From Onchidella celtica (Eukaryota > Mollusca > Gastropoda > Systellommatophora > Onchidiidae), in contig OZ007567.1 of NCBI GenBank assembly GCA_963931925.1, positions 81,663,186 to 81,727,185 on the forward strand: 64,000 nt of DNA. The letters are read 5' to 3'. The notes under the pieces were generated by a model, which worked only from the letters and a program-made list of their open reading frames with translations, was not told the origin of the DNA and ran no database searches. The position numbers and the translations under genes are program-made. Positions 49,043 through 63,941 of this stretch are shown piece by piece; positions within the stretch are counted from its first letter, which is position 1; each line of letters begins with the position of its first letter.

Positions 49043-51083
49043 CCGGTTGACGATGATTTAACACCTTACACAATAATCATATGAAGTGATTTTGAGCTTT
49101 TCAGATACAAATAATACTCTGCTTGCATGCTGTGCCTTCCTCTAGTGTCATGCTAAATATCGTTACAATGAGGACCGCCAAAAAAGGTAAAGAGCATTGT
49201 GAATATTATTTCACCAAAAAACAACATTCTTACAGTTATGTTCACAAGGTAATGAAATTTGTGCGCGTCAGTCTTCAACACAAACACAGTTCATGTAAAC
49301 AGCACAGAAAATACTGACCATAGCAATAATTTGTTCAGACAGTTGCGCTGACACAGGCAATTGAAAATTGTTCTGTACATCAAAGAAAATAATATTCATT
49401 GTTATTGTAAAACAATTATACGGAAAAGCAACGATTTGGTTGAGCCATTTCATGGGATTATGCACACGTGAGTTGTAGTAGATAAAATACATAAGTGTCA
49501 TCGTTTTCTCTGATGGAAAATTCTTGTTGTATTGCCTCCCTCCACTGACCCAGCTGCCTCTGAACAGAATATTTATCATCCATTATGTCAAACAAAGGCA
49601 TGGCCATTTTTGATTTTCTACAGCATACAAGTATAAGATTAAGAACTATTCAAGACAAACTTATTAAAAGCTGTCTGTCTTTGACACTTTTAAAACAACA
49701 GTCACAAAATTTACTTTCAATGACAACATGCAATACAATAATCGCATGTTGCATTCTATTTGAATCTGAGTTTCAATTTTGTATAACACCACTTACTGAC
49801 AAAATGTAGTGCTAAACAGAAAAGTCATCACTAATCAATGGAATTTCGTATGCATACGTACATATTCATAAAATTACAAAAATTGCCTCAACTGAAGTAA
49901 ACAAAATTTATTTAAAAATCATATATTAACAATACCTCAGATACTTGAGCTGGAACATCACACTCTAGTATAGCCCATTTATGTTTACTTTTGACATGGA
50001 AATCTGCTGAACATAGTTTCTAACTTTAAACTCTTTGGAATGTGAGAGGATGAACGACTTTTTATTTTTAATGTGCTTTCATGGTAGCTCTGGTGCGTGA
50101 GTGAGGGACGGCCACTCATAGTAGTTTATGGACACTTGGCCGAGTACCATTAATTGGATTATTTCCCTTGTAATACTAGCGCGGGACCCGTTATTCACAT
50201 CACGGTGAAAAGCGCGCATTTTGATTGGTCAGTTGGAAATGTTGACCACGGGGGTTCCAACTCTTATATCATGGCTTTAAGTTTCTTACAACTCGCTCAC
50301 TCGTTGTTATCCACCGACAGAAAGACGGGAACCCGAATTCATTTTTGAGAGTAGACAATACCCTATCGGTACAAAATAGGTACTCATGATAACGTTTGTT
50401 ATCAATGGAGATACGTCGTATTAATGGACGAAAGTATCCCGCACAAAATTGTCGGATGTTGTTAGTCCTGACACTTTGAAAATTTATATTAAAACTATTA
50501 CCGGGTTTCTGGTATAAGTAGTCAGTTAGAATTTTAGCAGCAAGTTTCTACTTTATAATGGTACCAATTTTGTTGTACTTTGATGCACATATCCTATTGA
50601 AATAATTAATAAGAGGGTCTCGGATTTAAAGCAAACTATGAGTTAGACGCATGTTATCCCCGATAAATCCAACCTGGGTCAAATTTATTCAATTATTGCT
50701 GGAGGGGTCGTTAGAGTAATTTCTGCAGTTTACTGGGATACCTAATTGACTTTTGTGTGCACCCTTTTAACCGTACTGTAAATTCGATTGTGTTAGGACC
50801 CTAACCGGTTATGTTGTCGGGCTGGACTCCATGTCCGAGCCTTTCACTTGTGCAACACGGGCTACGTAATAGCTCTCTCGGACGTCCGCGCGGGCTCATA
50901 AATAAGATGCGGTTCGAGTGGTCAACACACTCCATCATAGACGCAGGAGACAAGAGCCGACAGCACAGTGAACCCAGCCCAGCAACCCGGGCCCGTAGCA
51001 GCTCAGAGGCTTGCCGACGCTTGCCATCGCCACCCCGCCCCATAAGGCATGTAGCGGTAGCACAGGACCCGGAGAAACTTTGG

Positions 51084-52355
51084 GTAAGTTGGAGACTATT
51101 ATATTAGAAGTGACTTTAATTTGCGCACCCCCCCCCCCCTTTCGGGGATGCCACGTAGAGAATGCTGATCTACAGAGACCATTATGAGTCCGGCTCAACG
51201 GTAATTGCCATTGTCATTAGACGTGTAGGATGCGCTTTGCAGTACAGTGTCTTGATATTGTGACTTTATTGTCAAAGTTAACGTTTGCGGTGCTAGATGA
51301 TAATGATGGCTCGCTAACCAAGCTATCACAATTTGCTTGTGTGCATATATATAGTGTATGTGTAGCATTGCCTTGTTGTGGTAGGCAGTGAGGATTTCCT
51401 GACATGTTAATGTGGATGACTTATGTTATAGCGAGCGGCACTAAATTTGTGTACCTTGCCAGTACCACTATGCTATAGAGAGCAGTGTGATTGTGTGCTT
51501 AATGTTTAAGATGTGTAATTAATTACATGTATTGGAGATGTATAATATTAGTTGGGCCTCACATGGGTGAGCCCCAGGATTGTTCTATGTGCGGCGGTGG
51601 ATGAACAATGTTTCAGTGAGTCTACACATGTTGCAATGAGTCTCGCCGACATATATATATATATATCATGTGCATGTATTATGGTTATCCAGATGTATTA
51701 TGCTTCTATGAGTTTCGTAAGTGTGTGAAGGACAGTTTCATTTTAAGGAATGTACACATTACTTTATGTATCTAGTGGTGTGTCACACACATGTTAGCCT
51801 GGCGGCATAGCTCCGCGGCTAAGGTCGAAGGGCATGACCCTTGAGTATCGATTGGGAAGGGAAGTAACCAATACAATAGCCCTGGGGCGGGTTAGTACTA
51901 ATAATGGAGTGGGCCTATGAGGATGGCCTGCATTGGGATGCAGCGTCTGTGTTATGGACGGTCAGTGGGCCATGTTGGCCACTGCGTTATTATTTTATGG
52001 AATGGCCACTCTGGATGTGTTGTACACCGGCTCAGTGGAGCGAAACTATTGTGTTCTTGCCCCTTCATTTATGTCCTTCATACTTTGATTAGTACATTAA
52101 TTAGTTTATGTTGCCAGTGTACTAGGAAACTCCTTGTGTATATGATATAGCCACTTGTAGTTGTTATTCATTAACCTTAGCGCTATTTTATTCCATGCAT
52201 ACATATCCAGTTGGTTATTGCTTAAATTCTATATTATGTTGTTGTTGTTTGATTTAATACTTAATCCTATTACTATGTATGTCCACCATTGATTGCCTGA
52301 TTAATGTTGTCATTATATCCTAATCATATTTTTGTCATTTTTTCTCTTGTTCCAG
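51084..52355 (+). other. Spliceosomal intron inside the 5' LTR
   Basis: The donor is GGGTAAGT at 51083-51090 and the acceptor TTTTCTCTTGTTCCAG ends at 52355, with a good pyrimidine tract. The family member at 29351-30543 joins the flanking sequences precisely at these two points. The 1272-bp body is AT-rich, with a C-run, an (AT)n tract and a tRNA-like patch near 51799-51860, and no coding capacity. Confidence 0.88.
51799..51860 (+). other. tRNA-like patch (A- and B-box-like) in the LTR intron
   Basis: CATAGCTCCGCGG resembles a polymerase III A box, and TATCGATTGGG about 40 bp further loosely resembles a B box. A short GGG-CCC hairpin lies between. No complete cloverleaf can be drawn, so a tRNA gene is not claimed; it could be a SINE head. 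The same patch is at about 63186-63247. Confidence 0.25.
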
Positions 52356-52557
52356 CTTACGGCTGGTTGGGCTTCTTTTTCTGGGTTTCTTTTTTTGGGC
52401 TTTTTTTTGTTTGGTAGTGATACCGTTGTTAGGCTTTTTGAATAAATAAGATTGCCAGCAGAACCCTGTGTTTGTTAATCCTGTGTATCCTTAAGGGAGT
52501 TACTATTGAACCCACGCAGTAACCACATTAGCCACTCGTAGTTCATCCAACATTTTC

Positions 52558-62091: not shown

Positions 62092-62096
62092 GGGTC

Positions 62097-63941
62097 GTTA
62101 GAGTAATTTCTGCAGTTTACTGGGATACCTAATTGACTTTTGTGTGCACCCTTTTAACCGTACTGTAAATTCGATTGTGTTAGGACCCTAACCGGTTATG
62201 TTGTCGGGCTGGACTCCATGTCCGAGCCTTTCACTTGTGCAACACGGGCTACGTAATAGCTCTCTCGGACGTCCGCGCGGGCTCATAAATAAGATGCGGT
62301 TCGAGTGGTCAACACACTCCATCATAGACGCAGGAGACAAGAGCCGACAGCACAGTGAACCCAGCCCAGCAACCCGGGCCCGTAGCAGCTCAGAGGCTTG
62401 CCGACGCTTGCCATCGCCACCCCGCCCCATAAGGCATGTAGCGGTAGCACAGGACCCGGAGAAACTTTGGGTAAGTTGGAGACTATTATATTAGAAGTGA
62501 CTTTAATTTGCGCACCCCCCCCCCCCTTTTCGGGGATGCCACGTAGAGAATGCTGATCTACAGAGACCATTATGAGTCCGGCTCAACGGTAATTGCCATT
62601 GTCATTAGACGTGTAGGATGCGCTTTGCAGTACAGTGTCTTGATATTGTGACTTTATTGTCAAAGTTAACGTTTGCGGTGCTAGATGATAATGATGGCTC
62701 GCTAACCAAGCTATCACAATTTGCTTGTGTGCATATATATAGTGTATGTGTAGCATTGCCTTGTTGTGGTAGGCAGTGAGGATTTCCTGACATGTTAATG
62801 TGGATGACTTATGTTATAGCGAGCGGCACTAAATTTGTGTACCTTGCCAGTACCACTATGCTATAGAGAGCAGTGTGATTGTGTGCTTAATGTTTAAGAT
62901 GTGTAATTAATTACATGTATTGGAGATGTATAATATTAGTTGGGCCTCACATGGGTGAGCCCCAGGATTGTTCTATGTGCGGCGGTGGATGAACAATGTT
63001 TCAGTGAGTCTACACATGTTGCAATGAGTCTCGCCGACATATATATATATATATCATGTGCATGTATTATGGTTATCCAGATGTATTATGCTTCTATGAG
63101 TTTCGTAAGTGTGTGAAGGACAGTTTCATTTTAAGGAATGTACACATTACTTTATGTATCTAGTGGTGTGTCACACACATGTTAGCCTGGCGGCATAGCT
63201 CCGCGGCTAAGGTCGAAGGGCATGACCCTTGAGTATCGATTGGGAAGGGAAGTAACCAATACAATAGCCCTGGGGCGGGTTAGTACTAATAATGGGAGTG
63301 GGCCTATGAGGATGGCCTGCATTGGGATGCAGCGTCTGTGTTATGGACGGTCAGTGGGCCATGTTGGCCACTGCGTTATTATTTTATGGAATGGCCACTC
63401 TGGATGTGTTGTACACCGGCTCAGTGGAGCGAAACTATTGTGTTCTTGCCCCTTCATTTATGTCCTTCATACTTTGATTAGTACATTAATTAGTTTATGT
63501 TGCCAGTGTACTAGGAAACTCCTTGTGTATATGATATAGCCACTTGTAGTTGTTATTCATTAACCTTAGCGCTATTTTATTCCATGCATACATATCCAGT
63601 TGGTTATTGCTTAAATTCTATATTATGTTGTTGTTGTTTGATTTAATACTTAATCCTATTACTATGTATGTCCACCATTGATTGCCTGATTAATGTTGTC
63701 ATTATATCCTAATCATATTTTTGTCATTTTTTCTCTTGTTCCAGCTTACGGCTGGTTGGGCTTCTTTTTCTGGGTTTCTTTTTTTGGGCTTTTTTTTGTT
63801 TGGTAGTGATACCGTTGTTAGGCTTTTTGAATAAATAAGATTGCCAGCAGAACCCTGTGTTTGTTAATCCTGTGTATCCTTAAGGGAGTTACTATTGAAC
63901 CCACGCAGTAACCACATTAGCCACTCGTAGTTCATCCAACA
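62097..63941 (+). repeat. 3' LTR of the outer element, second part
   Basis: Resumes at GTTAGAG directly after the second GGGTC (62092-62096) and runs to the CA end at 63941. It differs from the 5' LTR by two 1-bp indels. The poly(A) signal is at 63830-63835. Confidence 0.95.
62471..63744 (+). other. Spliceosomal intron inside the 3' LTR
   Basis: Same donor (GTAAGT at 62471) and acceptor (TTCCAG ending 63744) as in the 5' LTR, 1274 bp. Confidence 0.88.

Follow-up and report, generated by a model that had tools for sequence, protein, structure and literature searches.

Splicing has been described in several kinds of retroelement. In foamy viruses (spumaviruses), the main splice donor is part of R and precedes the poly(A) signal (PMC3694450). 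The plant long terminal repeat (LTR) elements BARE1, Ogre, and CRR splice introns in their internal part, and amplification from barley DNA reportedly gave no DNA copies of the spliced BARE RNA (PMC3735527). In intron-marked retrotransposition reporters, the artificial intron of a neo cassette is lost in passage through RNA (PMC5930517), and Penelope elements, which encode a Penelope-type reverse transcriptase (RT) with a GIY-YIG endonuclease, can spread intron-containing sequences by a route that is unclear (PMC3846280). Here, we analyzed a window of 64,000 nucleotides from the gastropod Onchidella celtica (assembly GCA_963931925.1, contig OZ007567.1, positions 81,663,186 to 81,727,185; the window is this whole stretch), in which a preliminary description had placed a spliceosomal intron inside the LTRs of a retrotransposon. 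Reverse transcription would not be expected to tolerate an intron in an LTR, as splicing of the template should remove it from either end of the new copy. In the literature searched, with most subscription journals outside its coverage, we found no report of an intron lying wholly inside an LTR; LTR-intron phrases were matched by a study of a group II intron and by a lentiviral vector whose leader contains an intron.

Our analysis upheld the observation, supported the intron reading, and corrected the extent of the element. In most of the sampled copies, the 1.3-kb segment was either present or absent at exact GT-AG borders, and a few copies joined the donor to another AG. Both states were seen in young elements of the full-length type, in young small elements, and in every sampled exon-1 class. 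We put at about 0.88 the probability that the segment of this Ty3/gypsy LTR is a spliceosomal intron lying in R and that unspliced and spliced RNAs are both reverse transcribed, a reading made from the DNA sequence of the copies.

The LTR segment and its splice signals

Both LTRs of the element hold the segment where the preliminary description had located it, and both segments start with GTAAGT and end, after a pyrimidine tract, with CTCTTGTTCCAG. The features of the segment and its surroundings are as follows.

51084 to 52355, plus strand: intron, 5′ LTR copy, 1272 nt, with donor GTAAGT at 51084 and acceptor TTCCAG ending at 52355
62471 to 63744, plus strand: intron, 3′ LTR copy, 1274 nt
52320 to 52324, plus strand: branch-point-like CTAAT, about 30 nt from the intron end
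50897 to 50906, plus strand: TATA-like box CATAAATAAG, transcription start predicted about 30 nt downstream
50927 to 51083, plus strand: predicted exon 1, which forms the 5′ portion of R from an approximate left end; several versions of its last ~105 nt occur in the family
52356 to 52465, plus strand: predicted exon 2, which forms the 3′ portion of R and holds a T-rich variable tract and AATAAA at 52441; right end approximate

As had been described, the poly(A) signal lies downstream of the acceptor; with the TATA-like box at 50897, it flanks the intron, which is thus predicted to lie within R. At the start of exon 2 (window positions 52371 to 52430), the T-rich tract varies strongly in length and composition between copies (L001 to L072).

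We compared 31 distinct complete segments from the window and from fetched loci, all found by their border patterns. The donor was GTAAGT or GTGAGT, and the last six bases were TTCCAG, in all 31, in part owing to this selection. CTAAT or CTAAC stood about 30 nt before the end of every one of them, and this motif had not been used for finding the copies. The last 64 alignment columns formed the best conserved block, at 98% versus 91 to 97.5% in the other blocks, the borders again being partly selected. One intron (L050) was only ~80% identical to the others, yet its donor, branch-point-like, and acceptor sequences were kept. The sequence presents the donor, branch-point-like motif, pyrimidine tract, and AG acceptor expected of a spliceosomal intron, and intron-less DNA copies with the exact exon junction exist as well, one of them in the window itself.

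29351 to 30543, minus strand: solo LTR of the same family, intron-minus, with target site duplication (TSD) CACA; exon junction between plus-strand positions 29516 and 29517

In this solo LTR, ACTTTGG abuts CTTATGG, precisely at the predicted exon junction, as had been claimed. Deletion of the segment alone would not turn the neighboring LTR into this one: the two are 93.6% identical up to LTR base 934, after which the solo LTR carries another version of the last ~105 exon-1 bases. Intron-minus copies bearing the window's own exon-1 version were found elsewhere in the genome.

Two LTR states across the genome

The genome (1.14 Gb, 43 contigs) was searched at ≤2 mismatches, with reversed patterns as controls. 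We found 1703 intron-plus acceptor junctions (1 in the control), 1704 donor junctions (127 in the control), 1093 joined, intron-minus exon junctions (26 in the control), and 2542 LTR 3′ ends (0 in the control). A blind sample was formed by the first 100 perfect LTR 3′ end matches listed on contig C1, chosen regardless of the intron. A perfect junction was present in 91 of them, of the plus type at the expected distance in 60 and of the minus type in 31, which left 9 without either. Among these nine, one (L121) used the alternative AG described below, and two had a same-strand acceptor 810 bp and 5.7 kb upstream. For a second sample, the best 40 of 2181 matches to the LTR up to the donor were read across the border, which gave 26 plus copies, 13 exact minus copies, one joined to an alternative AG (L108), and no other form. 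Variable endpoints in other copies had been set beforehand as the mark of random deletion; instead, 91 of the 100 blind ends and 39 of the 40 donor-matched LTRs were exactly plus or minus. This endpoint test supports the intron, and random deletion was rejected, the endpoints in most of the sampled copies being exact and not variable.

The states of paired LTRs were compared on contig C1 up to 68.8 Mb, using perfect junctions only. Element-spaced neighbors comprised 12 minus/minus pairs (2.2 to 2.4 kb apart), 18 plus/plus pairs (17 at 3.5 to 3.7 kb, two of these from one LTR triple, and 1 at 8.0 kb), and no mixed pair; the three mixed neighbors seen lay at other spacings, namely, 0.9, 4.2, and 4.8 kb. 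Among the best 40 of 2181 LTRs, 11 same-strand neighbors 2.3 to 8.6 kb apart were likewise concordant, 5 of them minus and 6 plus. This concordance fits reverse transcription, in which strong-stop DNA from the 5′ R templates both new LTRs, and it disfavors loss after insertion, from which mixed pairs would be expected.

Some copies joined the usual donor to a different acceptor. In L108, the donor is followed by GGTTTTCCC, which in other copies follows an exon-2 AG with a pyrimidine tract of its own. A search for this junction gave 28 matches at ≤2 mismatches versus 13 in the control, and eight were perfect, on contigs C1, C6, C9, C10, and C15. The six of these eight that were read were all LTRs whose exon 1 stops precisely at the donor, and they represented three exon-1 classes. 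L124, which is the LTR listed above as L108, pairs with L123 in a single element, the two lying 2255 bp apart. The alternative-AG copies point to splicing, since a deletion would have no reason to keep the donor and pick another AG.

Relatives of the full-length type occur in both states. L069, on contig C17, carries the intron in the 5′ LTR and, in the fetched part, in the 3′ LTR, whereas L071, on contig C8, has it in neither. L069 has open frames for a 309-amino-acid gag, PNMA-like with a zinc knuckle (zf-CCHC), and a 1311-amino-acid pol with protease (52 to 147), RVT_1 (378 to 537), RNase H (613 to 745), and the integrase domains H2C2 (897 to 952) and rve (967 to 1064), which is the protease-RT-RNase H-integrase order of Ty3/gypsy elements. 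Other Ty3/gypsy traits are the zinc-knuckle gag of L069, the TG...CA ends, primer binding site, and polypurine tract of the window element, and short TSDs, which were 4 bp long in four insertions (GGAA, CACA, CGAT, and TAAA). L071 has an open pol frame of the same length as that of L069, and its listed gag frame has 228 amino acids, with the first part missing. The internal regions of L069 and L071 show 24 differences in 5215 aligned bases, their first 240 and 137 bases, respectively, not aligning throughout. Between its own two LTRs, L069 differs at 3 of 1894 columns and L071 at 4 of 1299, and nine further LTR pairs, five minus and four plus (the plus pairs compared over ~1.7 kb), are 0 to 10 columns apart. 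Both states have been mobile recently.

In a protein search with the RT region, identity was at most 65% among the 120 matches listed of 7799; the named relatives among the matches listed were mostly from fish, frogs, and molluscs, with a few other sources (a green alga, an oomycete, coffee, and a pseudoscorpion), a range that suggests an animal host. Viral contigs were also scanned, and no relative turned up there. Within the genome, one diverged relative (L018), ~71% identical over the first 643 LTR bases, is without the intron at the same junction. Six intron-plus LTRs (L040 to L045) recur every ~16.5 to 17.7 kb at C1:4051321-4137558, probably as a tandemly repeated block carrying one LTR per unit. 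Runs of three junctions at element spacing at C1:81754480-81759110, 99367602-99372337, and 63157239-63164589 match the layout expected of LTR-internal-LTR-internal-LTR arrays.

The element in the window differs from its preliminary description in extent. Positions 50041 to 63941, taken there for one LTR retrotransposon, are a nest, in which a small element is interrupted by a second gypsy element at 54289 to 62091. A single 14-kb element was rejected because the 3′ LTR lies in two pieces around an insert that has its own TSD. The parts are as follows.

50037 to 50040, plus strand: left copy of the 4-bp TSD GGAA of the outer element; right copy at 63942 to 63945
50041 to 52552, plus strand: 5′ LTR, TG...CA, intron-plus, 2512 bp
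52558 to 52575, plus strand: primer binding site TGGTGTCAAGAAGTGGGA, 5 nt past the LTR, called from the sequence
52553 to 53615, plus strand: internal region, 1063 bp, both ends matching the ends of the full-length internal region
before 53616, plus strand: polypurine tract GGGGAGAA, within the internal region
53616 to 54288, plus strand: 3′ LTR, first piece
62092 to 63941, plus strand: 3′ LTR, second piece
54289 to 62091, minus strand: nested gypsy element splitting the 3′ LTR, with a direct repeat starting at 54289 and 60910 and the 5-bp TSD GGGTC

The two LTRs of the outer element differ by no substitution and 6 gap columns, indicating a young insertion. Its internal region has no open frame of 200 amino acids, and the small element is probably a deletion form of the full-length element, as it matches both ends of the latter's internal region. 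The nested element is no part of the intron system. It has frames at 57662 to 60022 and 55828 to 57792 on the minus strand; its gag is SCAN-like, and the frame preceding the RT frame holds an integrase zinc-binding domain. This integrase-before-RT order recalls Gmr1-like elements; an integrase core is not among the domains listed for these frames.

A candidate route to intron-free copies and its alternatives

The two states can be accommodated in one replication cycle. Transcription would begin upstream and end downstream of the intron, giving a genomic RNA with the intron at both ends, and minus-strand strong-stop DNA made from the 5′ R would set the R of both new LTRs, so that splicing of the 5′ copy alone would determine the state of the entire new element. 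If the 5′ copy were spliced before reverse transcription, a short strong-stop DNA would result, which might nonetheless anneal to exon 1 of the 3′ R, and the new element would be intron-free in both LTRs; if the 5′ copy stayed unspliced, the new element would carry the intron twice. With splicing incomplete, or with part of the unspliced RNA being packaged, the intron-plus form would persist while intron-minus copies kept arising. The larger size of the intron-plus group and the splice signals kept in a diverged copy suggest that unspliced RNA may be frequently packaged or that the intron may help expression. The preliminary description had offered the packaging of unspliced RNA and an occasional loss as alternatives; both seem to apply, as young copies of both kinds exist. 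A tentative extension, to which we give somewhat less than even credence, is that the LTR intron is a maintained working part: selected splice signals would keep an intron-plus source lineage, the unspliced RNA of which is preferentially copied, and spliced RNA would continually seed the intron-minus population.

On a tree of U3 alone, recurrent loss of the intron and U3/R reassortment look alike, and exon haplotypes were therefore added. At LTR bases ~934 to 1043 (window positions 50974 to 51083), we saw at least six versions of exon 1, which resemble block exchanges and not point changes, suggesting recombination within R. In 51 rows, the diverged L018 and the truncated L032 having been dropped here and from the R tree, we distinguished six exon-1 classes, and all of them occurred in both states (minus/plus: A, 13/10; A0, 1/3; B, 3/3; B2, 2/1; C, 12/1; D, 1/1). 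The minus copy L023 and the plus copy L062 were identical in 343 of 343 exon bases (130 in exon 1 and 213 in exon 2), a rare exon-1 deletion included. On the U3 tree of 53 LTRs (merged from 60 rows, matches not spanning U3 base 15 to 870 being skipped), 15 state changes were needed, at least 7 of them on well-supported branches, and the exon (R) tree of the 51 rows needed 14, at least 8 of them supported, with the bootstraps of both trees not settled. On the U3 tree, a loss-only model reached a log likelihood (lnL) of −41.7 versus −65.1 for a gain-only model.

Several points tell against the intron reading or limit how far it can be taken. Shuffled labels need similar numbers of changes (means of 18.0 on the U3 tree and 15.6 on the R tree, versus 15 and 14), so intron state is hardly clustered on either tree. 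A two-way model (lnL −37.5 to −36.7) exceeds the loss-only model by ~4 units, and U3 predicts intron state no better than a coin toss, as 53 tosses give an lnL of −36.7. Because U3 comes from the 3′ end of the template and R from its 5′ end, a switch between two copackaged RNAs during copying could unlink them, and part of the pattern may reflect their reassortment between copackaged RNAs and not fresh losses. The number of independent losses is uncertain: the trees give more, but the strictest count from the exon sequences would be two losses plus the alternative-AG event, since several exon-1 classes share their last ~60 bases. The six alternative-AG copies share a very similar exon 2 and may go back to one event spread by recombination, and their state may also be a later exon-2 deletion spread in the same way. 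As for the samples, 6 of the 9 C1 ends without a perfect junction were left unread, and the 40 LTRs, being matched up to the donor, test the acceptor side only. The gag frame of L071, shorter than that of L069, leaves the autonomy of this intron-minus element unsupported.

These points bear most on the possibility of a single or double origin of the minus junction, which recombination between copackaged RNAs would then have carried into different U3 and exon-1 types, with splicing being minor today. The missing link between intron state and the U3 tree, the slight advantage of the two-way model over loss only, and the ~60 bases shared by some exon-1 classes would all fit such a spread, and class C, with 12 of its 13 rows minus, looks as though one minus lineage had expanded. 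We nevertheless consider it unlikely. On either side of the junction, L023 and L062 match at all 343 bases and share the rare deletion, both exon-1 end types and all six sampled classes occur in both states, and the alternative-AG copies retain the exact donor. Moreover, even the first loss would still require an exact cut at both splice sites.

Recent insertion of the segment, by a transposon or in an introner-like manner, would have created the intron in some lineages and make the intron-minus state ancestral, with which the diverged relative L018, lacking the segment at the same junction, would agree. However, no inverted repeat and no target duplication of the kind expected of a transposon-made intron are visible by eye at its ends, the segment aligns in all 31 compared copies, so that repeated gains would need repeated transfer, the gain-only model fits far worse than the loss-only one, and the deepest clade of the midpoint-rooted U3 tree holds both states. 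We regard this origin as improbable. Still less credible, to the point of being nearly negligible, is a cut-and-paste DNA element inside the LTR that excises precisely to leave minus copies: it would explain why the segment is absent exactly and at a fixed place, but excision should leave mixed LTR pairs, and none of the 30 element-spaced pairs is mixed; neither inverted repeats nor a footprint is visible, an excising element would not select another AG, and a diverged copy still has its splice signals. On these grounds, both the excision of a transposon and a recent insertion were rejected.

If the segment is indeed an intron copied from both spliced and unspliced templates, then ~1,700 plus and ~1,100 minus junctions, both occurring in young copies, would make it readable from DNA alone whether a template had been spliced. 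The family is also informative on the tolerance of R, poly(A) choice, and strand transfer to a length change of 1.3 kb. Should the intron also be maintained as proposed above, one family would run two LTR architectures, and the genome would log the splicing of the template copy by copy.

Comparison with described retroelements

The foamy viruses resemble this family in that R holds a splice donor ahead of the poly(A) signal, which places the donor at both RNA ends. Their acceptors are located outside the LTR, whereas here, donor and acceptor both lie in the LTR, so that splicing alters R only, and the joined junctions link the donor and acceptor of one LTR. With BARE1, Ogre, and CRR, this family would share the partial splicing of LTR retrotransposon transcripts; in these plant elements, however, the introns lie between or within coding domains.

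Penelope-like elements are comparable in that copies made by a retroelement retain introns despite reverse transcription. They differ in RT class and integration: Penelope-like elements are without an integrase, and the full-length copy here has a Ty3/gypsy pol, with integrase domains in L069. In its LTRs, primer binding site, polypurine tract, and lack of a 200-amino-acid open frame, the window element also recalls terminal-repeat retrotransposons in miniature (TRIMs) and large retrotransposon derivatives (LARDs). TRIM LTRs measure ~100 to 250 bp, whereas those of this family measure ~1.2 to 2.5 kb (2512 bp in the window), and the 1.06-kb internal region (1063 bp) matches both ends of a full-length relative.

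The likeness to the intron-marked reporter is that an intron of the RNA is missing from DNA copies made after splicing and reverse transcription. The reporter is man-made; the intron here is natural, lies in the LTR, and is kept in many DNA copies. In this family, the reporter seems to have its counterpart in nature.

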